From assembly GCA_903813345.2 (NCBI GenBank), contig CAIIXF020000009.1:3534001-3598000 (forward strand): a DNA stretch of 64,000 bases. The letters run 5' to 3'. The stretch's first letter is position 1; each line of letters starts with the position of its first letter. A program made the position numbers and the translations under genes. The DNA is from Owenia fusiformis. Taxonomy: Eukaryota > Annelida > Polychaeta > Sabellida > Oweniidae. Below are positions 1,139 to 62,199 of the stretch, piece after piece. The notes beneath the pieces are model-generated. The model saw only the letters and a program-made list of their open reading frames with translations. It did not search any database and had not been told where the DNA came from.

Positions 1139-4100
1139 TTAGTCTTGCTTCTCAGTACACATTCGTATAAACATATCTCCGAGGGAGTTCACATCATCAG
1201 ACATATTCATCTGTATGAACCATAAATGCCAAAGTTCCCGATCAAAAGTAATCCGTCCATCCTTAAAATATATTTTATGATATCGTAGTAAGATTGTTAA
1301 TTATTTGCCTTTGGGTCGGCTACTTTTACCCACTCTTTAGTATTTAAAAACATGGCTGAAATATTCACTCATCGAGTACATTGATAATAACCAGTACAGT
1401 TCTACTTGAATACTTTATCGTACAGCTATTTAATGGTATGTAATACAATACTTGAAATTGAAATTACGACTGACTTAATGAATGAACTTTTATCTTATGA
1501 ACGTACGTATGTTATATTCTTGAAATATTTCTCAGATCTTTCTTGTGGCAATTTTAAACATTTTCCGTAATATGTTACCCATTCCTCTTTCTCCACCCAT
1601 CCATCAGCTGTAATATAAGGATATACGTACAAATAACAATATAACAACAAGTAAAATGATACACAGACTATCATCGAAACCGAATATTTATGTGATAGTA
1701 AAAGCACATTATCAAAGCAGTGAACGCAAAATTCCGTTGCTGGAGAACTTACAATTTCCAAGTCTATCAAATACATCAAAGTAAACGTCCATGTAACGTA
1801 AGTACCATTGTGGGATTTGAAGGGTCTTAGTTTGAATCTGCCGGCACATTTTTTCCAAGGCATTTAGCCATTCGTCGATGGTAACCTTTTAAAAAGGAAT
1901 GCAGACTAACACCCCAGTCACATTTGTCGCACGGAGGCCGTGCGTCGACCGCAGATCAATTAAATCATTGTATTTTTGCGGCGAGCGTAGGAAAACTACG
2001 CTCGCCTTGTGGCCTCCGTACGGCGTATCCAGTTTTTTACAGGCCGCAAGGTCGCCGTAGAAATGATAACTCGGAGTTATAATATTTGTTCATTTATCAT
2101 CTGGCTCAACAAGATTGAATCATTATTTGTCAATGTTTCCCGATCACTTTTCATTTGATATTACATCCTAGCACTATGAATAACATTTATAAATTGTCCC
2201 GATGTTAATAAAATGAAAAAAGTATTATTTATCAACAGAAATTTAAAATTCACCGTGCGGCTGCCGTGGGAAATGTGACTGCAAAAGTATGAGAGCGCAG
2301 AAATTCCACGGCGAGCGTAGAAATGTTACTGGCCGCAGAAATGATAGACCGCAAGGTCGCCGTAGAAAATGTGACTGGGGTGTTACAAAAACATTTTTAA
2401 CTACATCTAGCAATTTATGTATATTACGCCCCTATCACAACAAACTGGTTCTCAACCGTTCTTTACAGTCCTGCAAAAAGTCGTAAAACGCGCTAAATCT
2501 GGCTGTGGTCGGGAAATATGTCAAAAATAATTAGCTACTTCGTTCATAAACAGTCTCCAATAATTGAATCGATTCAAAATTCTAAGATCACCTTCCTTCC
2601 CGTCTGAGAACGTTCTTGGAGTTCGTAAATAGACCTTAGAAAGTTGCAGCTACGTTCATTCCGTTCGCACACAATTTAAAACCAATTTTGAAGAACGCAG
2701 TGGCAACTTATTTTGGTGCGAAAGCTATATTTTCGTATAACTCGTGCATACGCAGTCTTTAATCATACACTCTTAATCGGTTTAAACCCGTTTACAATTA
2801 GTTCTACCTCGTTCTCAATACGTCCTCAGACAGTTCAACTCGTTGTAAAAACGTCCCTATTAGGATTGACGTACGACGGTACCGTTCGCAATACGTCCAG
2901 GTCGTCGTCGGTGCGTTGTCAATTGTTCTAATTGTAGAACGTGGCAACCGTGAGAACATTTTGAGCATGTTTTGAGTTCTAGAGGACCTACCCGGGTCTA
3001 AGTACGAATCCGTTAGTACACAGTTGAAGCGTTTTCGAGAACGTAGTGAGAACTAGTTTGGTGTGATAGTAGGGCAACAAGTTCATAAGCAATCTTCGAT
3101 ACCTCCTGAATCAGTTTAAACCCTATATGCCAGACAGTTCAACTCATTCTAAAAACGTTCCTAGTAACCTTACTATCACACCAAACTAGTTCTCACTACG
3201 TTCTCGAAAACGGGCTTCAACTGTGTACGAACGGACTAGACGTACTTAGAATCGTTTGGGATCTATTTACAAACTTCATCGAACGTCCTCGAACGGGTAG
3301 GTCCTCTAGGACTTAGAACATGCTCAAAATGTTCTCGTGGTCGTCACGTTCTACAATTAGAACGAGTGACAACGTACTAACGACGAGCTGGACGTACTAC
3401 GAACGGAGCCATCGTACTTCAATCCTACTAGGGACGTTTTTACAACGAGTTGAACTGTCTGAGGACGTATTGAGAACGAGGTAGAACTAATTGCAAACAG
3501 GTTTAAACTGACTAAGAACGTATCAAAGACTGCTCATGAAAAAATATGTAAACATATAGCTATCACACCAAACAAGTTGCCACTCCGTTCTTCAAAACTG
3601 ATGTTAAACTGTGTGCGAGCGGAATGAACATATTTGCAACTTTCTAAGGTCTATTTACGAACTTCATGAACTTTCTCAGACGGGAAGGTCACTTTAGCAT
3701 TTTGAAATGATTCAAAATTCGATGGCGACCATACCGTTCTGTAATCAGGTCATAGTGACCTTCTAGACTAAGTGACGCGTTATACGACGCTGCACACCTA
3801 CGTGGTGCGACCTGATCGAACTGCGAATGAGATGGACGTATTGAAGACTGTTTATGAACGAAGTAGCTAATTATTTTAGACATATTTCCCAACCACAGCC
3901 AGATTGAGCCTGTTTTACGACGTTTTCGTAGGACTGGCAAGAACGGGTAGGAACTAGTTTGGTTTGATAGGGGGATAAGATTAATGTACGAATTAAATTT
4001 CGAAGATATTCATCACGCAGTTTTGAAAAAACGTGAAGAGAACGCGATTCGCAAATACTTGGCAATTAATTGTGTACCTTTATAAATTCTTAGCATAGTC

Positions 4101-7100
4101 AACAGTGGCTCGATTTTCATGAAATAAAGCATATTGGAAAGATAAATCAATATGATAAATTTGTATCTATCAAATAGAGAAACAATTACCTTTTTGTATT
4201 ATCTAGAGATTTAGAAACAATGTAACAATCAATTTTTTATGAATTTCAATTTTATTGGAATCAAGTTCCAACTATCATAACTTTGCCTCTCTTCCCCAAT
4301 CAATCTAGTTTTGTTTACGCCAAATAGTGACCCCCACCATCCCTGAAGACATTGTGGTTCAAAATCTTTTCCCCATTCCTTTATTTTAATTAACAATGAT
4401 TTTCCAATGAGTCAAAAATCAAACTTATTGTTGTTTTACCAGCTTTAACCATTGGCTTTTGGCACAACTCTTCTAGTTTTTGTCATATGATGATTACAAA
4501 TAAAACCAAACTAAAGCTAACCATATCGTCCAGGTTAGTGTCTGCAATATATTTCACTGCCTTCCACATGTTGCTAAAAACGTCATTTAATCTCACCCAC
4601 ATTGGACTGCCCTCTGTCCAGTTGGTCAGGGTGAGAATATTCTGCAGAAATGAAATATTTAATCATTTATTTTGACTCATTGATAGTCACGTAATTAACC
4701 GTGTATGACTCTTGTATTAGGGATCTTGAAGCTTTTTGGAATCTGAAAGTGAGCTTTACAGGGAAAGTAAAAGTCAGATTCCAGGGGTCATATCAATAGT
4801 TCAGTGGGTGTAATTGATAAATCAATAATGTCAAATCTAAAACACAAATGTGAACTCTTTAGACAAAAGTACCCAAGGAGTGGGTATCGACATGGATATA
4901 CTTTATCCGCTAAAAGTCGACAGTCTCCGGGAATACTAAAAATCCTATTACTACTATTACTTGGATACGCATACAATGGTTATTTATAGAGTAAAAAGTG
5001 CATTTTCTGGCCTCTTAATTTCATGGAATGTTCCATATGTTTGAGCCGATGGGAAATGGGAGATCATTCCTCATATTTTCCACTCTTCAAGAGAAGGCCA
5101 GCGTATACTGGTTCCCATAATATCGGCCAAACATCATTTATGAAACAGTTCAATGTCAACATCGAGCATCAAATAGACACTGGCAATGGTAAGATCTCAG
5201 CCAGATAATTATGTGAGAAGTCCATTGTGAGGTGACAGCTAGTCTATAGGGAGATATAAAAATTTCATGGACAAAACAATGCCTGAATATTACAACAATT
5301 ATGAACTGAATTATTTTCCTTCGAGAGTGACTAATATCCAGGACTGGGAGATAATATGTGAAAATACAGCAATGTATATTTCTTATTCAAACATGACCGT
5401 GCTCTATTCGAATTTCTCAACCAATCAGAATGCAGCATAGCCAATATAGAACGTTCTCTAATTCTCCATAGATGCACGACCATGCTCTATTCAATCTGCA
5501 ATTTGCATTGTTTTGAGTGACGTCACATCGATCTCAGCTGCACATCTGGGGCTCTGTCCGGGGATAGCTGTTCTTTTTTACTCCCTCCGTAACTACTGTA
5601 ACTATTTAACTATGCCTGACTTCAGTTTGCACACCGTATAAAATCTAAAACGGGGAGTAAAATAGAACAGCCCAAACAAATTCTAAAATTTTTCCGGCCG
5701 ACTTCAGAATCTTGACAGCATGCGTAAGGGTTATTCTTCCTTCATGCCCGTTCCACAGACACGGCTTTTACTAATTTTTATGTTTGAATCGGAATAAATA
5801 ATGATAGGCCATTCAATATGGTGAAATTCAGCACTCTTTGGACAAAATGTTAGTACAAATGCACCCACCTTCGGTTCGTGCTTTGTACAACATTCTGTCC
5901 AACTCGTGCTGAATTTCACCATATTGAATGGCCTATCATTATTTATTCCTTAAATATACCGAACACGCAGATAAATTCTGAAAGAATATTGTGAAATAAA
6001 TTGTTTTTTCTAAACCCTTATGACATGACCCCTGAAATGTGACTTCCACGTTCCTAGTAAGAACTTTTGGAAATTGTTCATGACACATGCAGAATACAGA
6101 TCATGACCATGACAATCCAAAAATAATCATACACACATTTTCACAAATAATAATTTTACCATTATCTGAATTTTTGTTGATTGAACTGCAAGAATAGAGA
6201 CAATTGAATAAATACAAGTATTGGCTATCAATTTCTAATTTTTTCTTCAACATGTATTGTAATGACTTCAATATGAATGAAATGTCCCTTGGTCTTCTGG
6301 TCTTGGATTGTGATATTGGTTCTTGAATGATGGGGGGAAAGGGGGTATTAGACATTGTTTCTTTTCACGTTAGATCATGGTTTTGGGCTACACGGGGTTT
6401 GTTTTTCTTGACTGGTATGCACTTGGAGTTTGCTTTTTCTTGCTAAGTTCAATAACAACTTTTGGTCCTTTCCCTTTGGCACTTGTGCTTATATACTTAT
6501 ATATTCCAATTTTTATTCGCCCACCCTGTACATTACTCGGAAACCCAACTGCGAAATAATACAGGGTGGTCAAAAAACTGAGACAATTCTTAAAACGTAG
6601 AACGTGTGCAAATATATTACAAGAATATCTGTAAAATCTGTGAAACTAACCTTCACATGTATATCGAAATCGTTCTTGCTAACCACTCCATTTTTGTCTT
6701 GATCTGAAAATAACCTAAACTGAAATCAAGAGTACACAAAGACATAAAACGTCCAATAATTGTATATTCATATGACTTAAGTTTTACAAGAATAAGAATA
6801 AAATTATCAATGGCTTACCAAACCAGGTATAAAACTGATACTTGTTTTTCTTCTCCCAGATATCGGTGCGATTAAATTCGGCTCTGGAAACTAATTGTTT
6901 GACTATCATTTCTCCAAAAGTATTCCCAATAGTTTCCACATCCCTAGATACAGTGAATCCAAGTATCATCTCCCTGAAAAGAGCTATGTCCAAAACCCGC
7001 TGTCCATTCTAAAAAGACAAATCATGTCTGTATACGGTTGTCACATCTGGTAGCAATAAAATTGAAATTGTGAATGTTGAAATTGCAATATTAAGTGACA

Positions 7101-10100
7101 GGGTGACACAAAAATGCAACCCGCATAATAACGTATTTGCCTGTTTGATAACCGGTTGTTCTTTAGCACAGTGAAACTGATAAATTTAGACTCTATTGAC
7201 CAACTCCACAAGACGTTTTAGATGACTTGCTTAACTAGATGCATTTCATTAGGGTTACAAGATGTGCGCACACTCTTTTAAGTCAATGGTATGATTTCCA
7301 AACATGAAGGATCTGTAGCACACTATAGGGCAGCAACATTTAATGCAATATTTATGAAGGTGTATATGTCTTGATTTTTTTAAACACCATTTGCTGAAAA
7401 AACGTCCGGCTTTCGGGTCGAATATGTATTTCATCACAAAGGGTCAAAAAACGTAAATATTTTGATTCGAACTTTTGTACATTTTATAATTCACAGACCG
7501 TTATTCTAAGCATACGTACACAAATATATTATCATAATGTAAAAATATACTATAATTTTACTGTAGATGTCGGTGTTTAATTAGTGTTATTACTCAAGTG
7601 TGTTTTGCAGATTTTGTTTGATTTTTTCAAATATGAGTCAAGCCTATTCAACATAATTGTGTGGAATATTCAGGTAATTTATGATTGGGAACATATTCGA
7701 TTCCTTACCATTTAAAACATTTTATTATCAGAATTATTCCATATAATCGCAAGGGGTCTAACAACAAATTATCGTTAATTTTTTATAAAACATAATACAA
7801 TAACAAATAGGTAAGATTCATGTCTAATTAAATATTACAGAGGTATTGGAATGTTCATATATTCCAAGGGCATGTCTAATAATTAATTAGAGTCATATGC
7901 AATCGAACACCTTACAATTCTTCCTCGACATTACTTGCGGCTATCATCAAGTTTTCTGATTGTTGTATCTTTTTTTACCTTACCGTTGGGTACAATCAAA
8001 TTTAGGAAGATAATGTTAACGATTTTTACGCAAAAAGTGTTATATATGTGGCTCAAGCTAAAAATATAATGAGGACGCGAAAAAAAATTGCAAAAAGGAC
8101 TCAAGAAAACCCTAGGGGGAGGCGGATTGACCATCCCCGCAGACATTAGGGTTCATTTTATGTGCAAAATAATTAGTCAAGGGTCAGAAGGACAAATGTT
8201 TTGTATAACATTATGTGAGTGTGATGCATTTTTGTGTCACGCTATATTTCAAGAGTATACTTTAATCATGACATGATGTTACCATAATGATTTTCCTGTA
8301 TGCAGACTCTACGAAGCATAGAAAAGTGTTGGGGATGTGTCTTGATTCGTAGTAAAATCCAACAAATTCAACTTCGTCAATCAAACCATCTCCTAGAATA
8401 TCAATTCATTAAACATAATATAATGTAATGCGAATCGATGCAATTAATGCTAGCTACTTTATGAAAATATATCTTTCAATGTATGCGTAAATTATCATAC
8501 CATTTTTGTCAATTATGTGAAAAGTTATGTCAATATACTCGCGGAACCACAACGGTATGTCATTTTTCTTCTCGTAATTTGCAGCAAAGTCCGCCCAGAA
8601 GGTGCACCATTCAACTAAGCTGATCTGTGAAGTAAAAGTTTAGTGTTACACGTTTCCCACGTCAACAGTGACTAACACATGTAACATAATATGGAGTGTC
8701 GTAAATATATATGGACCGTTATTACGTGGTCATTATGTGTTCATATATTTTTTACTTTCTTGTCAACGCAGGGAATCGATTGCATCGCTTTATCAACACA
8801 TTCTATTATCCATGTGTACAATAATGCTTTTATTGATCTCTTAACGCTACATGATTATAGCATGCTTGAAATATTGACAATATGTTGGATGTTTGTTATG
8901 ATAACCGTGGATTTCAATTACTCGCCTGGTTGTTTTTATCCGCATCACTGGTTAGATTTGTCCATAAGTTACTTTTCATGACGTTGGCTCTCTTCCACAT
9001 TGGACTTCCATCTTTCCAGTCTCTTCTAAGTACCAGGTCCTAGGATAACTGATAATGTCAATCTCGTGGCATGTCAATATCTGACATTGTGTTCGGTTGG
9101 TTCTTTACTAATGACGATTTTATTGAAACATTCACTCAATGGTTCAGTTGTTAAAACGGCCTCATCTCATTTAACGGAAACAAAACATGTATGTAATAAT
9201 ATAATGGTTTTCCAAAATATTGTAAAAAGTAAGCAAGTATACCTGGAAAGCCATGTCAAAATCCTTTTTTCCAACAACTCCATTCAGATTCCTATCTAAA
9301 AATCAAAGGAAATCATGTAAACGCATAAAGTTCCGGTTGATAAAAAAGTTGTTCAAAAGAATTTGCTCAATTTGAAGCAAGTTGAAATTATACCTCGTTG
9401 AGCTTTTTTGACCTTGAGAAAGCCATTAAGGGTCAAATCTCAATCTGAAGTCAGTTTGAACTTCTGAGAACTTGTAGATGATTTTGAACAAAAGTCAGTG
9501 AAAACAGAATTTGAGCCAGGCCACAGGAAAAGGGGTCTGATCACAAATTTTTCAATATTTTGATTTTTTGTTTATCTTAAAAAGCACAAAAATACCTTTC
9601 AAACGAGCCATGACTTATGTCTTAACAATTTTCCCTTAAGTTGGATTTTAATTTAGCACATTTTCCTCTTAATCTTGGGCACATTTTTGGCCCTGTAGCA
9701 CAATTTTAATTTTTGTGATAAGACCGGTTTTCCTATGGGTGTCTACAAAACTAAGACCTAAGGCCTAATACCTACAAAACTAAGACCCCCCACGTAATAA
9801 AACTAAGACCCTGTTATAAAACTAAGACCCCCACGTTATAAAACTAAGACCCTGTTATAAAGCTAAGACCCCCCACGTAATAAAACTAAGAACCTGTTAT
9901 AAAACTAAGACCCCCCACGTAATAAAACTAAGACCCTGTTATAAAACTAAGACCCCCCACGTTATAAAACTAAGACCCTGTTATAAAACTAAGACCCCCC
10001 ACGTTATAAAACTAAGACCCGGGACTGGGCCCGCAGAGAATGATTAAGCAGAGAATTACTCATCCCCTCCTGACTATCAGCAAAATTCTGGAACGCGACA

Positions 10101-10180
10101 ATATACTCACCAAACAACATGTAGAATTGATTTTTTATTTTTGCCATCCAAAAGGAATCACGTTTGAAGTTGTTCGCCAT
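1139..10180 (-). CDS. Double-domain sarcoplasmic calcium-binding protein (SCP-like), gene C
   Basis: Eleven coding exons, all minus strand, in order: 10111-10180, 9243-9295, 8926-9039, 8501-8624, 8283-8392, 6819-7008, 6651-6703, 4522-4641, 1753-1885, 1507-1607, 1139-1261. They splice in phase to 396 residues starting MANNFKRDSF and ending in TAA. Domain 1 EF1 loop is DRNLNGVVGKKD; EF2 is damaged (ADKNNQISLVE, two residues shorter than in the paralogues); EF3 is DKNGDGLIDEVE. Domain 2 has EF1 DQDKNGVVSKND, EF2 DTNLDDMVTIDE and a 14-residue third loop DRLGNSDGWVEKEE. Each domain ends with a degenerate fourth EF-hand, as in amphioxus SCP. SCPs are cytosolic Ca2+/Mg2+ buffers, often in muscle. 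Intron 3 has a GC donor; all other introns are GT-AG. Intron 8 (2.6 kb) holds a MITE and a 1.5-kb palindrome. Family assignment is firm; exact function is inferred. Confidence 0.88.
1907..2385. mobile_element. MITE with TAACACCCCAGTCACATTT termini, gene C intron 8
   Basis: A 479-bp element whose ends are perfect 19-bp inverted repeats, TAACACCCCAGTCACATTT. Inside are GC-rich subrepeats (CGGCGAGCGTAG, CCGCAAGGTCGCCGTAGAAA) in both orientations. No transposase and no clear target duplication. On the minus strand its end is only about 20 nt above the acceptor of exon 9. Confidence 0.8.
2429..3973. repeat. 1.5-kb palindromic (fold-back) element, gene C intron 8
   Basis: The ends are inverted: CCCCTATCACAACAAACT at left and its near-complement ending TTTGATAGGGG at right. 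Nested arms pair along the whole length, for example 2490-2560 with 3840-3915, and 2590-2700 with 3545-3690. The core near 3050-3240 also pairs (CACCAAACTAGTTCTCACTA). No transposase. Class unknown; possibly a non-autonomous DNA transposon. Confidence 0.75.
4075..4330. repeat. Intron 8 block of gene C shared with gene A
   Basis: About 250 bp just past the donor of exon 8 (on the minus strand) that closely matches 47610-47860, at the same relative place in gene A intron 8. Shared strings include TGAATTTCAATTTTATTGG and CAAGTTCCAACTATCATAAC. Either ancestral intron sequence kept since duplication or two copies of one repeat. Confidence 0.6.
5791..5949. repeat. 159-bp near-perfect palindrome, gene C intron 7
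   Basis: Outer arms of about 42 bp (5793-5834 and 5906-5947) are near-perfect inverted copies containing GATAGGCCATTCAATATGG. The inner parts also pair (TTGGACAAAATGTTAGTAC with GTACAACATTCTGTCCAA), leaving a loop of about 20 bp. Probably a short fold-back transposon. Confidence 0.75.
6220..6560 (+). mobile_element. Solo 3' end of the Penelope-like retroelement, gene C intron 7
   Basis: About 330 bp matching 46650-46970, the tail of the retroelement at 44161, over strings such as CTTCAACATGTATTGTAATG and GTTTCTTTTCACGTTAGATC. A 5'-truncated insertion would explain it. A single mariner-like end (CAGGGTGGTCAAAAAACTG) abuts it at about 6563. Confidence 0.6.
7620..7990. repeat. Dispersed repeat, gene C intron 5
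   Basis: Parts of this stretch reappear in the same order at 30350-30600 and 31060-31150 in gene A intron 8, around motifs such as CATGTCTAATA, CATATGCAATC and TTTTCTGAT. In the second copy a fold-back sequence (30588-31060) lies between the two parts. Type unknown; no coding. Confidence 0.45.
9510..9745. mobile_element. MITE, GAGCCAGGCCACAGGAAAA family, gene C intron 1
   Basis: Matches the element at 17109-17335 from GAGCCAGGCCACAGGAAAA to AAGACCGGTTTTCCTATGG. The right end is cut off by the minisatellite that begins at about 9770. No coding. Confidence 0.65.
9770..10019. repeat. Minisatellite, gene C intron 1
   Basis: Tandem units alternating ACTAAGACCCTGTTATAAA and ACTAAGACCCCCCACGTTA, a composite period of about 41 bp, repeated about six times. 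It ends about 90 bp from the donor side of exon 1. Not coding. Confidence 0.85.
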
Positions 10181-11266
10181 GTTGAAAAATATGACTGTGC
10201 AGCTAAGAGGAAAGTATGGGCGCAATGCTCTCATGATTATTTTGAATCAGTAATGATATAGTCTAGATGAAAAATTGTTTAGTTTATACATGTATATGCA
10301 GGAAGGGCAAAATAACTTTCCTGTATTCTATATTTCATTCACTATATTTTAAATGGTGCAAAAATAGTTTAGGCCTAGTTTTGCATATTTCAATTAAAAA
10401 GTGGTGATATACCATGATTGTATATTTAGCCGTATTTGGTCGATTACAGACAAATAGGCTTATAGTTGTTTCGGGAAGTGAGACCGATAGTGGAAAGTTA
10501 ATTGAAGTGAATAAGTAAGTAAGATTTTCGGCCGTTGAAACAGCAAAATCCAGGTACGAGTCATAGCTTAGTTAGTTGAGCAGTTTAGTCAATTGATTTA
10601 TTCTATCATCTATTCATATGTGGTAAGTCTTACAATTCAACAAATGAAAATAATATAACAATTTTACCCAGCTAACCTTGGGCCTATTAACCACTGTCAA
10701 GAGCGGTAAAAACAACATTTCAAAGATCTATAGATCGTGAGTTGCTAAATGTGGTTTATCTTTGTTTCGAAAAGAAATATCAGAATTGAACTTTGACTTA
10801 CATAAAATAATCTAAAGTGATGTAAATATGATAAAAATTCATGAAATCATGAGAGTTGTCCTTAACATGTCGTATAAGCTAGTGTTATGCTTGTAGCACT
10901 GTATCAATGTAAGATTTTAACTAAAGGAGCCCATAACATCAAGACAGACTCTGAATATCAGCATTTGATAATATATGTGGGGGTCAGCAATGATTTCAAA
11001 TGTTACCTTACCTTGTATTCGCGAATGCAACAAACACCAGTCGGCTACCAGTACAACCTACTTTTTTGTATTATTGACCAACTCATTTAAATATGAATGG
11101 AAGAGTGGCAGATACTATTCATATTTCAATGAGTTACTCATAAAATAGTAGGTAAATCCGGTAGGCGACAGGCGTTAGTTGCATTCGCGAATGCAAGTGT
11201 ACAATGCGTAATGTAATTTCGATTATTTTCCCCCAGGCAGTCAGCTCTACTTCACTGTCAATATTT
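10181..11266. other. Spacer between genes B and C
   Basis: About 1.1 kb holding the gene C promoter, the gene B 3' end and the inverted repeat at 11014-11195. No further gene is seen, and no strong TATA box for gene C. Confidence 0.5.
11014..11195. repeat. Inverted repeat past the gene B stop
   Basis: Arms of about 75 bp pair from ATTCGCGAATGCAAC at left to GTTGCATTCGCGAAT at right; the centre pairs ACTCATTTAAATATGAAT with its near-complement. It starts about 70 bp past the gene B stop on the minus strand, in the B-C spacer, so may lie in the 3' UTR or in the promoter region of gene C. Confidence 0.75.
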
Positions 11267-21815: not shown

Positions 21816-21854
21816 GTTGTCTTCGTGAAAGTTAAATATGCTTGCAGACGACTA

Positions 21855-21861
21855 TTTTATA
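21855..21861 (-). promoter_or_regulatory. Candidate TATA box of gene B
   Basis: TATAAAA on the minus strand ends 40 bp above the gene B ATG at 21815. The implied 5' UTR would be very short, or interrupted by an upstream exon that I cannot see. Gene A has only a weak AT-rich candidate (TATAAT on the minus strand) near 53230, and gene C has none that I trust. Confidence 0.4.
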
Positions 21862-23059
21862 TCACGTTAGTGTCTCGGGTAAACGGTATTGGTGAGGTTA
21901 AGGTGCGCGTCTTTGAAAAGACTGTCTGGTGAACAAGTGGAATGATGGGCATGCGAGGATTCGTTCTCCCCGTCGTTGTATGAGCGTGTTCGAACAAAGC
22001 TAATTTAGACGGTTAACAGTAATATGTTGGGGTCATAATATTATTACACAAGCGAGTACAAATTATTTTCAAACGTGTAGCTTGACCGCCATTTTATTCT
22101 AATGATTTAACACGTATAGAAGGTGTGAAGGTGAATATGTACTTTTATTGCATTTTTATGAGACTGTGTTTACAAATAAACATTCTCTAAAGTTGCAATT
22201 TTGAATCCATGGTGTGGAACTGTGCAACAACTTCAGGTATTTGTTATTCAGCTAGTTGTCCTCAGTTGTACCTTTGTATAATTGCTAAACTCTCTTATAA
22301 GCTGCTATTGTTTACTTCAGAGCATGATACGATGTGGCTACTGTTGTTCTATTAGAATTGGAACAGATAGTGTCAAAATTGTGAAGTACTTATTTCGTTA
22401 GTGTATACAAATTATCGAATATTAATTGTATTAGGATATATTGCTGTCATTTAATACTTATGTTAAAAAAACAATATCAAATAACGAAATGAATGTATCA
22501 TTGTTGTTGGTATATTTTGCATCAATATAATAACTACATTGTGATAACAACTGTCTTGGTTATCTGGGGGTACAACTTACATCAGAAAATAATGAACTCT
22601 GATATGCACTAAACAATGCCATCTACATATTCATTAAAAATCTGCAAAAGGCTAACAGGCAAATTTAAAGCAGATATAGCAGTGATCTACGAAGTTTATC
22701 TACCAACATGAAAATATGGTTCATTTAGCGAATGACTTTTTTGGGCATCAACTAAGGAACTAGAGAACATTGAGACGTTTATAATTTCTTTAATATACAA
22801 AGCACATAGAAACTTGAATAATGGATATAATTTGCAACTGTATTACCGACTGTCATTATATGATGTCCTTAAAATTGAGACATAAAATATATTGTTCAAT
22901 GATATTTATAAAAAATAGTTGTTCTCTCGGAGACTGTCATACCTTCGATGTTAATGTTACAGTAGGTCTACCATATCTGACGTTTATAAAAAGCATTATA
23001 ACTAAAATAATGTAAGAATCATCAATATGCAGTTTTACGACTCTCGAAGAACCGTCAGT

Positions 23060-23730: not shown

Positions 23731-23864
23731 CCTGAATGCGTACACCTTTCTTCCAAGCCAATGTTATGTTAGTTCAATGCTATGTATATTTCGTATTCTA
23801 TTATAAGCAATCATGCACTTTTCATGCATTTTTACGTCTATAAGAATTACTTTGAAATGTGTTA

Positions 23865-43100: not shown

Positions 43101-46100
43101 CTATGGGACATTAGTTGGCAATGTTAACAAATGAATTCATTAAATAGACACCTTAGGGATTAAAAAAATGTATGTAACTTATTCACACCTTATGGGTGCA
43201 TGGGAATCCCTTGTTCCTACTATACTAAATGTTAACTCGTGAAATCTCGGTAGATAAAGAAGGTCAGAAAATCCGGATTAATCCGAACAAGGTTCGGGAA
43301 TTTCCGTCATAAGAAGTAGGTCAAAAATATTCCAATGGAGTATAAAATTGTCACCAGGATTCCGAAATACGACGAATCGAATCGGCAAACTTCGGTACAA
43401 TAATGAAGTGCATAAAATCCGAAATGATCCGAACAACGTTCGGATAAAATCGTGAAACAGGTGTCAGGGGCTTCCCCTCATCTTTCCATACATGGTTCTT
43501 AAAGCCTTATATGGATCTATCACGTGACATTCAAAATGACATTCCTATATGGTTCTATGGGCCTTATATGGATCTTTCGAACACGTGACCTAATACCAAA
43601 TCATAATCAAAATTTTACCTTGACCATTGGATGGGATTTCATAGAAAATATCAAAGAAAACATATTCTCGTGATCCTTAAATCACTTAAATTTGATAATT
43701 TTATCTTCACCCCTTGATGGAATTTTATGAAAGAGGTTATGAAAACACATCATCATGTAAGGGTTTTCACCTAAATTAGCTCGTTTTATCTTGACCCTTC
43801 AATTGAATTTCATTGAAAAATGTGTAATGAAAAATATCATCATGTTATGATTTGTATTTAAATAAGACCGTTTCATCTAAATACTTGCTGGATAATATTT
43901 CATAAAAAATGCACTTTAAAAATATTTCAGGATTTGCCTTAATTTATCAATGTAATGTAAGTATTAGCTTGACTCTCAAATAGGGTTCTATTATAACTTT
44001 TTTTATTGAAATTAATACTAGGCAGGACTCACTCTCTAAATAGCTAATAAAAATTCAACCCTTGGATGTGATTTCGTTGAAAAAAAAATATGACAAGTCC
44101 AGAATCAAATGATTTGTCCAGAACCTCTTAAGATCCTGTTTCAAGAACCATCTAAATTTTTTGAATAATTATAAGATTAAACCAGGAGAGAAACAGGAAC
44201 ATTTGCCCAAAATTTACTGGACACCAAAGTTACATAAAGCCCCTTATAAAGCTAGGTTTATTGCTGGGCCTAGAGTCTGTTCCACTAAAAAAGTTTCTGG
44301 ACTATTGACAAGGTGTCTTCAAGCTGTTAAAAATAATAGGGAGGCTCATTGTAAGGCTATTTTTAGAAATTCCGGGGTTAACCATATGTGGATCCTTAAA
44401 AATTCCAAAGATCTTTTATCAAAATGTAATGATTTGTCTACACTTTACACATCAATTCCTCATGACAAGTTAAAATATTAAATATTCGGAATCATTAAAA
44501 AAGACAATGATGGGTTGTAAATTTAAATATGTTAACTGTAATTCAAATAGGGCTTAATTTTCTAGTGAACAATATGATAAATATATTTCTTTCACTGTAG
44601 TACAATTCTGTGAGGTGTTAGGCTTTCTTATTGATAATATATTTGTTAAGTTTGGAAGTTCAGTTTTACGTCAGAATGTAGGTATACCAATGGGTACAGA
44701 TTGTGCTCCTCTTTTAGCAGATCTTTTTCTATTCTCGTATGAGTATAAACTTTTACAAATGACGATGAAAGATAAAAGTAAATTTCATATTGCATAGTTA
44801 TTTAATAAGACAGATCGATATATTGATGACTTGTTGAGTTTAGACAACCCAAAATTTAAAGAATTTGTAGGTGAGATATATCCTACTGAGCTAGAATTGA
44901 AAAAAACTAATGAATCTGATATGAGTGCACCTTATCTTGATCTTCTTATTAAAATTAAACCAGATAATAATATACAGGGTGTCCGGAAAGTAAAGATACA
45001 AATGCTCTCATTTCAAGAGATTTACCTTCTATGAGATGAAATTGCTACAGAATGTGGAATGACATTATAAGAATATATCCTACAACTGCCATGACTTTTA
45101 GTTTCAAAATGAAAAAGTTATGGTTGTTATGGTAACGAGAGTCGAGGGTAAGTGGAGCAACGTCACAACTGTGTTCTGCAAATCTCTTTCCTGCTCATAT
45201 GATCTTGGCACTCCACCATCTAGTCCTATATTATATCAAATTTTGTACCACAACAGCATAAGGATTAGTAATGTAACATCATTTGATCATTTTATATTAC
45301 TACTATCATTGAATTTTCAGTATTTTCCCCATTACCTATACATTATTGGTGCATCTTGACCGGCGATTCAAAGGCCTGGCAAAACCGCTGCTGTCCATCT
45401 CTCAGATTGCTGACAACATTGGCTTCCAGCTGAGTCTCATTTGTATGTTCAACTTTTTACAAATATTGCTTTCAAATGGTCATTAAAGTAGAAGCCTAAA
45501 GAGGCTTTATCAGGTGAATATGGGGCATTGTATAGAAAGGTTTAATGTCAAGACACTCCATTGTAAGATTTGTTTTTGCTTTGTGAATTGGTGCATTGTG
45601 CAGATGCAATATTGACTTTCCTACTAATGGCCAGGGACCATTCTTCTAGGCACTTGTATAATATTTCTTTCATTATACTGGTTAGTGACATAACATAGTT
45701 CTGATATGTAGCAATGGCATCATTATATAAAAGAAAACACCATGGCAGCAATAATACAATGATTAACAAAACAAAACATAGATAGAAAATACAACAAATA
45801 ACACTGTTTCAAATGGTTGTCTTTTAGCTATTTTTCACCTTTGAGCGTTGTTCTGGAACTGCTCCGCATACCCCTCACATCCGTAACCATAACAACCATA
45901 ACTTAAACACATTTAGACTATATGTGACGAAAGTTGGTAGAAATATTGTAATATTGTTTATCTACAATCTGTAGCAATTTCATTTCAAAAAACCCAAATT
46001 TCTTAAAATAAGAGTATTTGTATCTTTACTTTCCGGACACCCTGTATATTGCAAATTATATGACAAAAGAGATGACTTTAATTTTGACATAGTTAACTTT

Positions 46101-49100
46101 CCACTGGATAGAAATATTCCACTTAACCCAGCATATGGGGTTTATGTATCCCAGCTTATTAGATATAGCAGGGCGTGTTCAAAATATCTAGATTTCAAAT
46201 CAAGACACCATATTTTAGTGATCAAGCTGTTAGGTCAAGGTTATACTTGTAAAAAACTTAAGAAATACTTTCTGGGCTTTGCTGAAGAGTACAAGTCATT
46301 AATTTCGAAATTTCAAGTTTTACCACTTGAGATGCTGAAGGATGTAGGAATGTTATAATTAAATTGGCAATGAACTCACAATTTTTTCACTTGGCACCTT
46401 TTGAGGTGGATCCCGGCTATGACATTAATAGTTGAGAAATAGGGATCGAAACCAGCCATAGTTTTCTCCTGATGACCATTGTGAATTGTTGTGTTTTATG
46501 GATTATGATGACGGCTTTGCGAACGGATGTTGACCCTTTTAATTGCCTATGGACTTCAAGATTGGATTATATCTATCCCACATCATTTGAGACTGAATGC
46601 TCTATCTTTTATGAGTACTAGCATCTACAACTATTTTTGATGTTATGAGTATTGGCTATCAATTTTTCCATTTTTTCTTCAACATGTATTGTAATGACTT
46701 CAGTATGAATGAAATGTCCCTCGGTGTCCTGGTCCTGGATTGTGATATTGGTTCTCGATTGGATGGGGGAATGGGATGTTAGACATTGTTTCTTTTCACG
46801 TTAGATCATGGTTTTGGGATACATAGGGTCTACTTTTCTTATGACAGATTTACACTTACAGTTTGCTTTTCTTGTTGGGTTTCTTTAAAGTTTTTAGTCA
46901 CCATTCCCTTTGGTATTTGTGCTTATATATTCCAACTCCTACTCTAAGCCAGACAACCCCAGTTGTTTAATGCCACAGTGAACAAAATAGTGTTATTAAC
47001 CCTAATGTCTGCAAACTTTTTTATAATACTGTCTGAGATTGTTTTATACTTGTCCGATTTTATCATTGTTGGTATTGTTGTAAAACTTATTCAATACCTC
47101 TTCAGATATGTTTTATTTTCTTTAAAAAGTAGGTCAATATAGGTCAAGTCGAGGTCAACGTGACCGAAGGGGGTGTAGCTTTTGACATTTTGTAATAAAT
47201 TGTAACAATAATATATTATATTTTAAATATACTAAAATCATGGTAAAAGCTTTTCTTGAACTGAAGTTACACACTCCCAAAGAAAGCAGGTATCGCGAAA
47301 TCCCATTGAAATCAATGTAACGTGAAAGTGAATAGGTATTGTTTCAATACGCATAAGTGTATGACTTGGTATTGCTTCAATATGATTTTGGCCCGTTATG
47401 TTGCGTAGCGACCACCTGGCAACGGCAAAAAAAACATCGAAATAGTGAAATCGAAAAATTGGGGGTAGGAGAGAATAAAAAAATTGCATTTAACATTTTG
47501 AAGACAATATGCTAACAAAATTTCAAATTAAGGTATTCATAGAGTAGTTTTTAAAAAAAATATTTTCTCTACAATTTGTGAAGATCACGACTACTTGGCA
47601 ATTGGTAGTTTTTACCTTTAAAAATTCATAACACAGTCAATATTGTCTCAATTTTCACGAAATAAAACATATTGGGAAGAGGTTCAATATGCTAAGTTAT
47701 TATTTATCAAACAAAGCAATAATCTTTTTGTATTTTCTAGAGCATTGGAAACAAAATAACAATCAATATTTTATGAATTTCAATTTTATTGGCATCAAGT
47801 TCCAACTATCATAACTTTTCCCCTCTACACCCAAATCACATGTTTTTTACACTAAAAAGTGTATTTTAGCTGTAACTAAAGCTAAAAAATAACGGAGACA
47901 CAAAATAATCGAGGGGTCGGATAGACATTAGGGTTAATTGTATGAAATCCCATGTAATCTTTAATCTTGGCATTTGATGCCATTTAGGCAAGCCATTCCA
48001 TGTAAATTCAAATGTCATGAAATAAATAATTTGTTGACTGCTAGGAAAAAACATCCATTATATATCGCTGTCGTTCAACAAAATTGAACAAAATAAAAAA
48101 CAAACAAACCTTATCATCCAGATTGACATCTGCTGCACGCTTTAACTCCTCCCACGTGTTAGCATATACTTCCTTGCATTTCAACCACATCGGACTACCC
48201 TCTCTCCACTTTGTCATGGTTAGGATATTCTGTGTAAAATTGTTGAAGCCCCCATATAAAGTTTGAACAACTTTGGCTTGTAGTCTTACAAAATGTTTTC
48301 CAAGTATGATAGTCTATGTAAAACTTTATTTTTTAATCTAAAAATGTGATTTATGAAGGACCTTTTGTTCGAAAATTGTGAATTAAGTATCGTTTCCGAT
48401 CACACATACAACCTTATCTGTTAATGGTCAGAGAAAAGAGTAAATACATTTAAAAAATTTAGTTTCAATATAAACCAATGATACTGTATTTTTAAAACAT
48501 TATATTAAGTAATACTTCCTTCTAACCCGATATGATATTGGTTTCTTTTTTTAAATAAAGCATAATTAGAAAAATGATTTTGCCACAATAGTATTGTCAC
48601 GATGATGTCATTTTGGTTGCAAAATGTTTCTTATATGCTAAAGTGGCACATTATATATGAGATTTTAAATTGTAATTGCCCTTTATCCCATCTTTGCATT
48701 GCTGTTATGATATATTTTTGCAATGTATAGTAAAATATTTGATGATTAAAAAGGTTTAAGGTTAATTTGAAAATTGGCGGGGAATTTGAATATTTGGAAA
48801 TGAAAAAATGAAAAGCTGTCATTATTTTCATAATATTTGTTCTAAAAATCTCTAAATTAAGTTTGAGTTAATAAAAATTAGTGGATTAATGATATAAACA
48901 TACTTTCATGGGGAATTTTATGGAATATAATGTTTATAGATTTTTCATAAATCATCCGGATGGATTTTAATTGACTCGATTGTACATAAACCATTACTTC
49001 ACATTCTTGTATTGCCCAAAATTAAATAAACTCACATTAGCACTTTGATCGAAATCCTTCCTCTCAACAACTCCATTTCTGTCTTGATCTGAAATTTAAT

Positions 49101-52100
49101 CGAATTGTGTGTACGGCTATTTTATATACAATAAAGTAACTTTATCTATGTACAAATAGGTTTGTGTTGAATGTCTTATTTCATTAATTTATGTTTTTAT
49201 TTTATTTCGGAACTCTATTTACCAAACCAATAGTAGAAATGGTGCCTTTGTTTTTTGTCCCAGAATTCAGTGCGTTTAAATTCAGTTTCACAACCTATTT
49301 CTTTGACCAACATTTCTCCCATTATGTTTCCAGGGCTTTTCATATCCTTGGACACAGTGTATCCAATAACCATCTCCCGAAAGAGTTTGTTGTCGATGTG
49401 ACGTTGTTCATTCTGAAAAAAGAAATTACTTCATATCTTGAGAATTAAATGCTTGACATATAGGTGACAGAGGTTATTTAAATGCTCTTCCTATCGATAA
49501 GAAAACATATCCAACGTATTGGTGTCTTTTATTTTTGATATAAGAAATAAGATTATACATTTTAGAATTATTCTTATCACTCAGATTCATCTATCCATTC
49601 TGAATATACTCCCCTCCCCTTTGCTCACTGTCTAAAATAACAATTTCTTATTTAATGAGTGCTATAGCTACCAATGTTATCCTTCGATATGCAGTTTCTA
49701 CAATGTCTTGATGGATTTGACGTAACCCATGGAAATAGTCAACGAATTCAGTGCAATCTATCCATCCATCTCCTATAATACAAATCGCAATGTCATCAGG
49801 TATTTCCTATCGGTTAATGTTTAATTTCTTGATTTACAAATTACTTATAACATCTTACCATTTTTGTCCATAAAACAAAAGTATACGTCGAGAAACTCTG
49901 TGTACCAGAAAGGAAGATCGGTGTCATTGACGTATTTCGCAGCACATTCCGCCCAAAAATCGACCCATTCGTTAAGACTTATCTGTAAACAAAAAGGAAG
50001 AATTCCCTTTTCCATCTCAACAATATCATCAAAAATTGTTAAAGCTGGACTACGCTCCGAAACGCAATCTTGGGTTGTTTCGGGGGTGAACTTTATCATT
50101 TTGAGCTTAATGAAAGATTATAGAATGATGAACAAATGGGGCAAATCTTGTGTAGAAATACTTACGATAAATGTGTCATTTCAAAGATTTTTCATTGAAT
50201 TTGCTTCGATCGGTGCCGGCGATATGATTTTGGAAAGGTTTCTAAATGAAGAACGTGACGTCACTTCCGAATCATAGCATTCAAAATAAGTAGCGTTTAA
50301 TTACTTTCCCTTACATAATGATACGGTGGTGTAGCGGGTAGAATCCTCGCTGAGCACGCTGGAGGCCCGGGTTTGAATCCCGCACTAGCCTTTTTATTTT
50401 TTTAACTAAATGATAGTTCTTTGATATTACGCAGAAAAAAACAATTTTTATTTACATAAACTTTATATTAGAGCTTGAAAATGTAAAAACAATATATGTC
50501 AACATATTGCGTTTTGGAGCGATGTGCAGGTTTAATTTTGCCATTGGTTGAGGATTGACTGAAATGCTAACATTAAAATACCAAGTTGAGGTGCAATACA
50601 TTATTAAATTGAATTGAGTGGGATATGATATGATATCAGATGACTAATACTGCGTGGATTTATTTGGCTCGCCTGGTCATTTTTGTCTGTATCTGCACTG
50701 CTCTTTAGTTGCTCCCACAAGTTGGTTTTCATGGTATATGCTCGCTTCCACATTGGACTTCCTTCTACCCATTTTGCACCTTGCACCAGGCCCTATATCA
50801 ATTAGACGAATGCTGCTATTAATATAAAAATCACACCACTTTTACGCCATCCATCCAAAACAAGTTTCAATAGAACCCAAACACGAAACCACCGGTATTT
50901 ATAGCAAATTGCATCATTTCGTAATTTACTTAAGATTGATAACAAAATAAAAATAAAATGAAAGGTAATGTTTTCATTGATGATTGCATTGTTCATCCAT
51001 GTTTAAACGTTGAGTCTTCCGATGATTCGTCTTTTTACCACAGCTCCACCTGTGGAATATTGTTTTATGAATGCTAAGATAGAAGATATACCTGAACAAC
51101 GATGTCAAAATCTTCCTTATCAACTACTCCATTATGATTGAAATCTACAAAACATGAAGAAAGCTATTGTAAGGTTTATAGAGGGATTTGAGGTTGCCGA
51201 AAATCCAAGACTGCTTTCAATATGAAGCTCATATTACGTTTAAACAGTGTATGAATAATTCATATAATAGAACTTTGTGCCACCAAAAGTTTGTACGTTT
51301 TGATTTTAGCTGTGCTTGCAATGAATAAAGGCTTTGTATAAAAAACATCCTACCTCATACCCACCTACCCACGTACGTGGCACATGATACAGTCTTTGAA
51401 GGGTTACATTTTAAAGATCTTAGTTTATTAAATCTTAGTTTATGATGAATTATATATGCATTTATAACGACCCTTGATAGCAAGTTGCTATTACATCCCA
51501 GCTGGGTTCGATTCCAACTCGGAGCTTCGAATTTAGCACACTTTCTTTCAATTTCTTTATCTGGATTGTTGGACCTATTCATGCGCTCGTTAGTTATTTA
51601 TTCCCCTTGGGTCATAACACATTAGAATGCATCGATATGCCTTTATTTATTGATCTGACATCTGTCTAGTCATAAAATAAAGCCGGAATAGTATTTTTTG
51701 GTTTAATAATCTTTAAATTGAACCCTTCAATAAATGTATCATGTTCTACGTAGGTGGGTAGGTTGGTAAGAGGTATGAGGTTTTTTATACAAAGCCTGCA
51801 ATGAAAGATAACGTAAGGCGACAACGCTAGACAACTTAAGGATGAGCAATCTTCGCACGCTACGGTCGTCACTGCGTTAATCGACCAACGGGAGCTGAGT
51901 GAACGAAGATGAGAATGAGCTCCTTGATAGCCCGGCTTAGAAGTCATTGAAATATTGCGTATGTACCTTGTTATACTTTTGTCGGGGACCGCCTCAAATC
52001 CTATTTTTGTCTTAGTTCAGATTCCAAGGTCAAATCTGTTTAGTTTAGGCTAGAATTGCTGTATTTCAGATATCAAGATGTCCTTTATTTCAATATTTGA

Positions 52101-53174
52101 AGACTAATTAGTTCAAAATGAGTATTGCTAAGATAAAGTATAGTCTCACTGGCCGGATTCAGAAGCTAACAAGGCGGAATAAATTTAATTGGCCGAAAAA
52201 GGCCTAAAAGCACGAATGGCCCACTTGTTGAGCCTGAGAATGAATCTAAGAGAGGTGAATTTTTCCATTATGGACTTCCCACGTTCCGCATTGCACAATA
52301 TAAGTTCTGCACTCGGGGTGTGTACAAAGGCTTAAACATTAGATTACATGTAGTTGGTTTCTACATTTTTGTACGCATTTTTACTCGAAAAAACACCTGT
52401 TTTTACTGACTAAATTTTTGAAACTACCCGAGTCACGATCGTTAATGCATGATGCACCAAATGTGGTATTTTATCTGTAGCTTTAGCTAATAACGATTAC
52501 AAAAATATATATACCGGTGGGGAAATACAGAGGGGTCACCCTATCCACCTAAGGGTTAAGATGTTTAGCATCAACTTCTTTATTGGAATTTGATTTAAAG
52601 CAAGCGTGTCAACAGGTTATAGTCACAAATTGTACAACGTCTTTGTGCATCGTCCTCTAGGAGCATCGGTGTTATAACACTATCAGGTACCGGTCACGTA
52701 CAGCATATTATATGTAAAATAAACCCGTACCTAGAATACTTACTCCAAATGCATTAATGTTAGGACTAATGGGAGCTCAGGGTTCGGGGGAATCTTCTGG
52801 GAATGGCGTAGATATTACATGTAAACAATAATTTTTTTAAAAGTAGAGATTCTGGTAATATAACACTTACAAATGTATGAACAGCAAAGTTCGGATGTGA
52901 CGATAAGTACTCGAATACGTAAAGCAACCCGGCAAAATTTAGTTCATAACATGAATTAGTATGTGACAAAGTATTAGAAATTGAAGATCTATAATGAGAG
53001 GACATTGGTTTACCGTTCCACGAGTACACTATACAAGACTGCAAACGTAAAATCAGTTGAAACAATTATCAATATGCAAACATAATGTCTGTGATGATAC
53101 TTACCGAACCAAGTGTAGAATTGATGCCTCATTTTAGCCAGCCAAAAGGAATCATCCTTAAAATTCTTCGCCAT
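28156..53174 (-). CDS. Double-domain sarcoplasmic calcium-binding protein (SCP-like), gene A
   Basis: Eleven coding exons on the minus strand: 53105-53174, 51092-51144, 50673-50792, 49859-49982, 49672-49772, 49223-49412, 49036-49088, 48110-48229, 28974-29106, 28767-28864, 28156-28284. They join in phase to 396 residues, MAKNFKDDSF to LLIDEQL-stop. Domain 1 EF loops: DFNHNGVVDKED (24-35), DTDKNDQISLNE (75-86), DKNGDGWIDCTE (120-131). Domain 2: DQDRNGVVERKD (220-231), DVNLDDKVTIDE (271-282) and a 14-residue loop DGLGNADGWIECEE (317-330). Position 12 of each EF1 is Asp, as in amphioxus SCP. A has the best preserved EF2 of the three copies. Intron 3 uses a GC donor. Intron 8 is about 19 kb and full of transposons. 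The joining of exon 8 to exon 9 across it rests on phase and on the paralogues; the alternative is that exons 9-11 belong to a truncated extra copy. Confidence 0.85.
29107..31338. other. Gene A intron 8, lower part
   Basis: No coding. Includes the dispersed repeat shared with 7620-7990 and the fold-back at about 30588-31060. Near 29390-29600 there is a GGCCGAGGGCCGAAGGACGC segment of MITE type. Confidence 0.45.
30588..31060. repeat. Fold-back insertion in gene A intron 8
   Basis: CAAATAGTGGCTGCCA at 30597 pairs with TGGCAGCCACTATTTG at about 30742, and GTCCACTGACATGTTCCC with GGGAACATGTCACTGGAC inside it. A further copy of the ATATACCTCATATG motif is inverted at about 31040. It splits a repeat whose uninterrupted form is at 7830-7970. 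Confidence 0.55.
31339..32910 (+). repeat. Element X, copy 1 (gene A intron 8)
   Basis: About 1.57 kb from ACAGGATCTTAAGAGGTTC to CTCTAGATCTATGAAATTC. Two more copies are in the window, both interrupted. This copy carries a local duplication: about 145 bp at 31890-32035 and 32040-32185. It holds two tRNA-like pol III promoter sequences: minus strand at 32510-32600 (A-box-like CAGCTCGCTGG, B-box-like GTTGATCGAGACCC) and plus strand at 32695-32765 (GTGGTTCGTATCCCTCC). No protein; perhaps a composite SINE-type or non-autonomous element. Confidence 0.7.
32911..37344. other. Gene A intron 8, middle part
   Basis: Mostly non-coding. Holds the AGGTCA-rich tandem repeat (35620-35990), a small hairpin at 35110-35190 (AGGAGATGTCCCGA with its near-complement), and at 36715-36890 a fragment inverted relative to 37850-38200. 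Two doubtful exon-like stretches at 34228-34309 and 33360-33505 are discussed as a finding. Confidence 0.45.
35620..35990. repeat. Tandem repeat rich in AGGTCA/TGACCT
   Basis: Three or so imperfect units of about 125 bp, each with TGACCCTTG, GATTAGGTGACCT, a CAAGGTCA-type motif and a TATCTA-G-ATTTGGCG-like segment. Similar words occur at 34850-35000. Not coding. Confidence 0.55.
37345..37846. mobile_element. MULE-like MITE, copy 1 (gene A intron 8)
   Basis: 502 bp with long inverted ends starting GGCTTTGTATAAAAAACC. Flanked by AGTTTTCAC at left and AGTTTTTCAC at right, a target duplication of about 9-10 bp, as Mutator-like elements make. The interior, read on the minus strand, has GGGTTCGATTCCCAC, a good B box. 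A second copy is at 51330-51796. Confidence 0.75.
37966..38469 (-). repeat. Element X, copy 2, distal half
   Basis: Reverse-orientation element X from the tail (TTTCATAGATCTAGAGGCCC) to the point where the 4.76-kb fold-back element enters. The other half continues at 43228-44139. The tRNA-like segments are at about 38100-38170 and 38275-38365. Confidence 0.75.
38470..43227. mobile_element. 4.76-kb fold-back transposon with minisatellite core
   Basis: Inserted in element X copy 2 with a 3-bp AAT duplication (38467-38469 and 43228-43230); the empty site is seen at 58600 in copy 3. The ends are TAGTATAGTAGGAACAAGG inverted. Two arms of about 1.5 kb (38470-39950 and 41760-43227) are near-identical inverted copies. 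Within each arm are two direct subrepeats of about 380 bp. The core is a 21-bp minisatellite that changes orientation. No transposase is encoded, so it was moved by an enzyme from elsewhere. Superfamily unresolved. Confidence 0.88.
39950..41760. repeat. 21-bp minisatellite with an orientation switch
   Basis: Units like GGCCCCCAGAAGCTATACGG, 21 bp long, run forward from 39950 to about 41345 and in reverse from there to 41760. A higher-order unit of about 281 bp repeats near 40075, 40355 and 40635. Because 21 is a multiple of three, frames stay open (APRSYT repeats), which creates false genes. Confidence 0.9.
43228..44139 (-). repeat. Element X, copy 2, proximal half
   Basis: Reverse-orientation start of element X, ending at 44139 (complement of ACAGGATC), directly beside the Penelope-like element. 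Single-copy version of the segment duplicated in copy 1. Confidence 0.75.
44161..46970 (+). pseudogene. Penelope-like retroelement, broken, gene A intron 8
   Basis: Plus-strand reverse transcriptase pieces: IYWTPKLHKAPYKARFIAG and LYTSIPHDKLK at 44161-44481; VGIPMGTDCAPLLADLFLF at 44615-44797; RYIDDLLSLDNPKF and YLDLLIKI at about 44815-44975; then past an inserted mariner, DDFNFDIVNFP, AYGVYVSQLIRYSRACSKY and on to a stop near 46358. The order of the motifs (KLHK, YTSIP, GIPMGT, YIDD) fits Penelope-like enzymes. Several stops and frameshifts; not functional. The non-coding tail to 46970 recurs at 6220-6560. Confidence 0.75.
44975..46044 (-). mobile_element. Tc1/mariner relic inside the Penelope-like element
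   Basis: 1070 bp flanked by TA, with inverted ends CAGGGTGTCCGGAAAGTAAA matching for about 35 bp. Minus-strand frames keep pieces such as IHKAKTNLTMECLD and, in another frame, YNAPYSPD, matching the catalytic half of a mariner-type transposase; frameshifted and dead. Confidence 0.8.
46971..48109. other. Gene A intron 8, upper end
   Basis: No gene. The part at 47610-47860 matches gene C intron 8 (4075-4330). The rest is AT-rich without identified repeats. Confidence 0.5.
47610..47860. repeat. Intron 8 block of gene A shared with gene C
   Basis: Counterpart of 4075-4330. It lies about 250 bp past the exon 8 donor, against about 190 bp in gene C. Shared strings include CTTTTTGTATT and TTTTATGAATTTCAATTTTA. 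Confidence 0.6.
50330..50400 (+). pseudogene. tRNA-like sequence (tRNA pseudogene or SINE head), gene A intron 3
   Basis: GGTGTAGCGGGTAGAAT resembles an A box and GGGTTTGAATCCCGC a B box with one change; a TTTTT pol III stop follows at about 50391. The acceptor stem pairs poorly and the anticodon loop lacks the expected U33, so it is not a working tRNA. Confidence 0.45.
51330..51796. mobile_element. MULE-like MITE, copy 2 (gene A intron 1)
   Basis: 467 bp, same family as 37345-37846: ends GGCTTTGTATAAAAAAC, inner GGGTTCGATTCC on the plus strand here. Flanks share TGCAATGAA but not in perfect register, so the target duplication is eroded. Confidence 0.75.
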
Positions 53175-62160: not shown

Positions 62161-62199
62161 TTTACATTCTTTCATATGGCAGTGGAAAGACAAATTTTG

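Follow-up and report, generated by a model that had tools for sequence, protein, structure and literature searches.

Proteins of the SCP/calexcitin family are small calcium-binding proteins of invertebrate muscle and nerve, built from one module, that bind Ca2+ and Mg2+ with high affinity and are abundant in the cytosol of excitable cells. The window that we analysed (the whole stretch of 64,000 nucleotides from a contig of the annelid Owenia fusiformis) holds three neighbouring minus-strand genes with SCP-like units, and the question that they raise is whether each encodes one double-length protein or two proteins of ordinary size, and, if one, what such a chain might do. The answer that we consider probable, on the strength of the sequence, is that each gene encodes a single predicted cytosolic chain of ~400 residues, in which two EF-hand modules, both of the calexcitin/amphioxus-SCP group and fused before the gene was triplicated, are held together and would act as a Ca2+ buffer or sensor.

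The window is rich in introns and has a GC content of ~34% over most of its length. Splice sites were placed by homology and consensus on a minus-strand reading of all frames, which gave the following predicted models (genes A, B and C).

Gene A, 10180-1139, minus strand: 11 coding exons, predicted chain of 396 amino acids
A exon 1, 10111-10180, minus strand: start of unit 1 (MANNF...)
A exon 2, 9243-9295, minus strand: EF1 loop of unit 1
A exon 3, 8926-9039, minus strand: GSPMW segment of unit 1 and start of EF2, followed by a GC donor
A exon 4, 8501-8624, minus strand: unit 1, end of EF2 to start of EF3
A exon 5, 8283-8392, minus strand: EF3 of unit 1
A exon 6, 6819-7008, minus strand: bridge without a stop, from the degenerate EF4 and C-terminal end of unit 1 into the start of unit 2
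A exon 7, 6651-6703, minus strand: EF1 of unit 2
A exon 8, 4522-4641, minus strand: GSPMW segment of unit 2 and start of EF2
A exon 9, 1753-1885, minus strand: unit 2, end of EF2 to start of EF3
A exon 10, 1507-1607, minus strand: EF3 of unit 2, its 14-residue loop lying across exons 9-10
A exon 11, 1139-1261, minus strand: degenerate EF4, C-terminus and stop
Gene B, 21815-11267, minus strand: 11 coding exons, predicted chain of 400 amino acids
B exon 1, 21746-21815, minus strand: start of unit 1
B exon 2, 20530-20582, minus strand: EF1 of unit 1
B exon 3, 19825-19944, minus strand: GSPMW segment of unit 1 and start of EF2, with Gln at EF2 position 12
B exon 4, 19564-19687, minus strand: from the spliced model
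B exon 5, 19098-19207, minus strand: EF3 of unit 1
B exon 6, 17651-17840, minus strand: bridge, end of unit 1 and start of unit 2
B exon 7, 16909-16961, minus strand: EF1 of unit 2
B exon 8, 14905-15024, minus strand: GSPMW segment of unit 2
B exon 9, 14374-14506, minus strand: from the spliced model
B exon 10, 14144-14244, minus strand: EF3 of unit 2, 14-residue loop across exons 9-10
B exon 11, 11267-11395, minus strand: C-terminus and stop
Gene C, 53174-28156, minus strand: 11 coding exons, predicted chain of 396 amino acids
C exon 1, 53105-53174, minus strand: start of unit 1
C exon 2, 51092-51144, minus strand: EF1 of unit 1
C exon 3, 50673-50792, minus strand: GSPMW segment of unit 1, followed by a GC donor
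C exon 4, 49859-49982, minus strand: from the spliced model
C exon 5, 49672-49772, minus strand: EF3 of unit 1
C exon 6, 49223-49412, minus strand: bridge, end of unit 1 and start of unit 2
C exon 7, 49036-49088, minus strand: EF1 of unit 2
C exon 8, 48110-48229, minus strand: GSPMW segment of unit 2, followed by a 19,003-nucleotide intron
C exon 9, 28974-29106, minus strand: from the spliced model
C exon 10, 28767-28864, minus strand: EF3 of unit 2, 14-residue loop across exons 9-10
C exon 11, 28156-28284, minus strand: C-terminus and stop

A preliminary description of this DNA had proposed three tandem minus-strand genes of 11 exons, each encoding about 400 residues, and the spliced models bore this out, with exact coordinates and with chains of 396, 400 and 396 residues. 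The exon entry phases (0,1,0,0,1,0,1,0,0,1,0) were common to the three genes. All 30 introns ended in AG and 28 of the 30 began with GT; the remaining two, intron 3 of A and intron 3 of C, had GC donors, which counts against our reading. At this position the donor is GC in A (exon 3 edge at 8926, donor side at 8925) and in C (50673 and 50672, respectively) and GT in B, and because B nests beside A in the tree described below, this distribution suggests either that the GC donor is ancestral or that two changes took place. The start of A is uncertain, because an in-frame upstream ATG that was found in this gene only lies 18 codons before it (~10180-10240, minus strand) and would add 18 mostly hydrophobic N-terminal residues. 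Upstream of their starts, B meets a stop at 13 codons and C at 6 codons.

Each chain consists of two SCP-like units of ~200 residues. In B, the alignment of the two units over 195 positions shows 35% identity (E 2e-47 for this pair), and in all three genes unit 2 repeats the intron phases of unit 1 (1,0,0,1,0), with five intron positions shared. The units meet in exon 6, which is 190 nucleotides long in A, B and C, is open throughout with no stop codon, and has two matches to the unit profile, with the C-terminal part of a unit at its beginning and the N-terminal part of a unit at its end. The shared introns and the in-frame exon 6 thus uphold the earlier view of the product as a double-length, two-unit SCP-like chain. 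In a tree of 14 rows (the six units and eight comparators, among which the crab SCP row was flagged as long-branched), the three copies of unit 1 formed one clade (support 97/97), the three copies of unit 2 formed another (97/96), and all six units grouped together (100/100). Because the unit 1 sequences form one clade and the unit 2 sequences another, the tree points to a single fusion that came first and a fused gene that was then triplicated; the tandem expansion proposed previously therefore stands, with one fusion placed before it. A duplication private to gene A, in which its two units were joined in the tree, was rejected (p-AU 1e-71).

We suggest that the ancestral gene, with a single module and five introns, underwent a head-to-tail duplication, and that exon 6 would have arisen when the first copy's final exon merged with the initial exon of the second copy, with loss of the stop codon. 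The ground between the head-to-tail copies was presumably removed by deletion or unequal exchange, and the two-module gene would later have been triplicated in tandem. Judged by analogy, the fusion of tandem copies is a known road in invertebrates: a two-domain arginine kinase of clams is named in a title (Suzuki 1998, as cited in PMC4649718), and multi-domain globins are on record (PMC4503718). There, too, tandem copies of one domain were fused, although the likeness is one of analogy only and these proteins are unrelated to the window chains.

The window contains exactly three copies, and no fragment of a fourth is visible in it. A strict 12-residue EF-hand pattern had six matches, all on the minus strand and one at the EF1 of each unit, whereas 40 Markov-1 simulations of the window averaged 0.2 matches and never gave more than 1. 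The six-unit profile, run against the 2,899 window ORFs of at least 15 amino acids, matched the 33 modelled exons (by construction) and found nothing better than E 6.6 among the other ORFs. With the 33 exon peptides as queries, tblastn at E<=10 found 368 places beyond the models, compared to ~330 expected by chance, the best of them at E 0.035. Together, the profile and tblastn scans ruled out further copies or fragments in the window. No tRNA or Rfam matches were found in the window. A search with the six-unit alignment, which covered virus and prokaryote contig sets, gave 113 and 101 pattern matches, respectively, none of which was confirmed.

dN/dS was estimated by the Nei-Gojobori method, and with dS at 1.2-2.3 over the chain the ratios are approximate. 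They came to 0.24 (A-B), 0.26 (A-C) and 0.12 (B-C) for the whole chain and to 0.22, 0.22 and 0.19 for exon 6 in the same order of pairs. Variable sites in exon 6 numbered 26, 18 and 37 at codon positions 1, 2 and 3 (p 0.014). Measured in this way, exon 6 is under purifying selection. Two figures for the linker count against our reading, namely the A-C value among its ratios over 25 codons (A-B 0.26, A-C 0.51, B-C 0.22) and the distribution of variable sites by codon position over 19 codons (7/4/10), which was not significant (p 0.12). The intron DNA flanking exon 6 was 23-41% identical in ungapped comparison, and in the 1.5 kb upstream of the genes the common bases beside the ATG numbered only 3-4. 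By the evidence of these alignments, the copies are old and their coding parts alone are conserved.

To place the units among solved structures, we compared their profile with the PDB, which gave 94 matches at E<=0.01; the figures that follow come from the best 60 of these 94. Within this set of 60, eight distinct calexcitin, insect juvenile hormone diol kinase (JHDK), amphioxus SCP and crab SCP sequences had E<=2e-17. Calexcitin 2ccm ranked first, with 106 bits (E 2e-29), and was followed by other calexcitin chains; the remaining scores, again among the best 60 of 94, were 95 bits for JHDK 7pjd, 83 for amphioxus SCP 2sas, 83 for JHDK 6kth and 68 for crab SCP 7wbo. Chain B alone matched 49 PDB sequences at E<=1, and Nereis SCP was absent from these 49. 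Pfam EF-hand families exceeded their cut-offs in all three chains, and no SCP-specific Pfam model was among the families found for them. In NCBIfam, chain B had no match above the cut-offs.

By score, then, the closest solved relative is squid calexcitin, followed by insect JHDK and amphioxus SCP, and the tree chooses none of them. The best tree put the units beside amphioxus and crab SCP, which counts against kinship with calexcitin, but with support of 54/49 this grouping is unsupported. Neither the placement of the units with calexcitin and JHDK (p-AU 0.30) nor their placement with amphioxus SCP (p-AU 0.38) was rejected. Nereis SCP as the sister of the units was rejected (p-AU 0.0002). The likeness to Nereis SCP that had been drawn previously fails on both the tree and the PDB matches of chain B. 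Because the tree chooses neither calexcitin/JHDK nor amphioxus SCP, yet rejects Nereis SCP, the label 'SCP' is, as far as alignment and tree can tell, right in the broad sense that takes in SCPs, calexcitin and JHDK.

The comparators differ from the window chains in size. A single module of ~170-200 residues is a trait of the SCP family, whereas the window chains have two modules. Squid calexcitin (2ccm, 4ndb-d, 5f6t) aligns almost end to end with each unit and shares with the units the EF1, EF2 and EF3 loops, the degenerate EF4, a Trp between EF1 and EF2, and an E-W after EF2; it differs in having one module, of 191 residues, in lacking the GSP, and in having an EF3 loop of 12 residues where unit 2 has 14. 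Insect JHDK 7pjd has the W..GSP segment of the window units, but 7pjd and 6kth are single modules of 184 and 201 residues, and we ascribe no enzyme activity to the chains of the window. Amphioxus SCP (2sas) and crab SCP (7wbo) share the loop pattern of the units and the Asp at position 12 of EF1, but are single modules of 185 and 196 residues without the W..GSP segment. Nereis SCP (1q80, 2scp) has the layout of four EF-hands and the Asp at position 12 of EF1 that are seen in the window units. The W..GSP segment, to which attention had been drawn before, is indeed present in the units, with the refinement that it recurs in JHDK 7pjd: GSP is found in this one alone of the eight comparators, and the Trp and the E-W beside EF2 are common to calexcitin and JHDK.

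Taking as canonical a loop of 12 residues with Asp at position 1, Asp, Asn or Ser at positions 3 and 5, and Asp or Glu at position 12, we counted five canonical loops in A, four in B and five in C. In unit 1, the EF1 loop lies at residue 24 in all three chains, the EF2 loop at 73 in A and 75 in B and C (with Gln at position 12 in B), and the EF3 loop at 118 in A and 120 in B and C. In unit 2, the loops of A, B and C lie at 221, 223 and 220 (EF1), at 272, 274 and 271 (EF2), and at 318, 320 and 317 (EF3), the last of these having the 14-residue form D-x-L-G-N-x-D-G-W-[V/I]-x-x-E-E. The two extra EF3 residues were present in three of three unit 2 sequences and in none of the 11 other alignment rows. 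Position 12 of EF1 is Asp, not Glu, as in the comparators of the calexcitin/SCP group, and EF4 is degenerate in six of six units. The arrangement of canonical EF1-EF3 with a degenerate EF4 is complete in unit 1 of A and C, with departures in unit 1 of B and in every unit 2. By this canonical rule, the earlier estimate of up to six EF-hand sites per chain was too high, because the EF3 loop of unit 2 has 14 residues in A, B and C and the EF2 loop in unit 1 of B ends in Gln.

Inspection by eye revealed no signal peptide in B or C, which makes a cytosolic location most likely for the chain; in A, the upstream ATG would add a hydrophobic stretch. Each module would bind Ca2+ (or Mg2+ at rest) through EF1, EF2 and, in unit 1 only, EF3, leaving EF4 a purely structural part and giving four or five canonical sites per chain. 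Tethering would double the sites per molecule and fix the two modules side by side, and in excitable cells the chain may serve as a buffer of high capacity or as a Ca2+ sensor with two heads. Two sources give precedents for either role: SCP is presented as an invertebrate Ca2+-buffering protein (PMC8460440), and calexcitin is described as a Ca2+ sensor that binds GTP and acts on K+ channels and ryanodine receptors (PMC13042319). Of the two we prefer buffering, since the group, taken as a whole, has muscle buffers among its members. That the chain is instead a two-headed signalling protein in the manner of calexcitin, acting on ryanodine receptors or K+ channels and not as a buffer, seems to us possible but distinctly less likely: calexcitin, with its described action as a sensor on those targets, is by score the nearest solved relative of both units, but the tree does not put the units with calexcitin, and muscle buffers belong to the same family.

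Crustacean SCPs act as non-covalent dimers. A bolder form of our reading, which we offer tentatively and think rather unlikely, is that the window chains would be obligate covalent SCP/calexcitin dimers with split duties, in which unit 1 has three standard sites (two in B), the EF3 of unit 2 has been turned into a conserved 14-residue loop, and the whole could serve as a two-headed switch, its halves answering different Ca2+ levels or holding two partners. No published two-module SCP or calexcitin was found in the titles and abstract starts of the literature searched, which was part of the whole, and the two-module architecture may well be catalogued already. If our reading is true, these tethered, selected and triplicated modules would make it possible to test which of capacity, affinity, kinetics and two-handed binding gains from tethering, and mutation and binding experiments could be aimed directly at the conserved odd loop of unit 2. 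For annotators, the lesson would be that a 400-residue gene of such kind can be a true fusion; no new class of mechanism is opened.

Intron 8 of gene C, between exon 8 and exons 9-11, is 19,003 nucleotides long, which counts against our reading. We consider it quite improbable that gene C represents the remnants of two broken copies, one comprising exons 1-8 (53-48 kb) and the other exons 9-11 (29-28 kb): the exon groups are 19 kb apart and have repeats between them, but together they make up one exact and complete set, on the same strand and with order and phase preserved; the scan of the window found a second set of neither group; and both halves are constrained, with a unit 2 dN/dS of 0.16 for B-C. 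Moreover, nested mobile elements explain part of the length of the intron. A repeated element occupies 31337-32922, and an inverted second copy at 37953-44144 is split by a 4.8-kb palindromic insert at 38469-43228, which has arms of ~1.9 kb that are 92% alike, central tandem arrays, ends that are almost identical and what looks like a 3-bp target duplication (ATT). Because these nested elements account for part of the 19 kb, they favour one interrupted gene C.

The least probable alternative, to which we give very little credence, is that each gene yields two proteins of one module each, from transcripts that are separate or end at alternative sites, with the 400-residue chain an artefact of joining: gene-joining annotation artefacts are reported as widespread in helminth genomes (PMC12964723), AATAAA or ATTAAA occurs in intron 6 of B (three times) and C (twice) in AT-rich DNA, though not in intron 6 of A, and an ATG lies within exon 6 of A, B and C, but in all three genes exon 6 is one open exon coding for both units, and no residue at the start of unit 2 corresponds to the Met that initiates unit 1. 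With intron 6 retained, a stop would be reached after 74, 88 and 65 codons in A, B and C, counted from the beginning of exon 6, distances so unlike that the three genes have no end in common, and the Met of exon 6 is an invariant residue of the units that is also found at the C-terminus of unit 2 and so gives no sign of a start. A single transcript per gene, and with it the two-module chain, is strongly suggested by the structure of these predicted models.

Mobile and repeated sequences were also seen elsewhere in the window. A further copy of the element at 31337-32922 lies at 57722-64000 and is split by an unlike insert of ~4.9 kb (58703-63569), which has terminal inverted repeats of ~31 nucleotides and what looks like a 5-bp target duplication, and which contains a long tandem array of the TTCC type. 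Fold-back (self-inverted) repeats occur in or beside the introns of A and B (608-1117, 2564-3715, 5791-5949, 11012-11197, 17921-18916 and 59494-59708). Introns 7-8 of A (4056-6495) and intron 8 of C (46648-47861) have stretches of 276 and 285 nucleotides in common, at 80-84% identity and in the same orientation, which are perhaps mobile elements or kept intron sequence. Between B and C, on the opposite strand (23865-24998, plus strand), is an intact single-exon ORF of 377 amino acids for a rhodopsin-like GPCR (Pfam 7tm_1, E 1.8e-38), the best PDB matches of which, among the best 60 of 505, were the beta-1 adrenergic, adenosine A2a and histamine H2 receptors.
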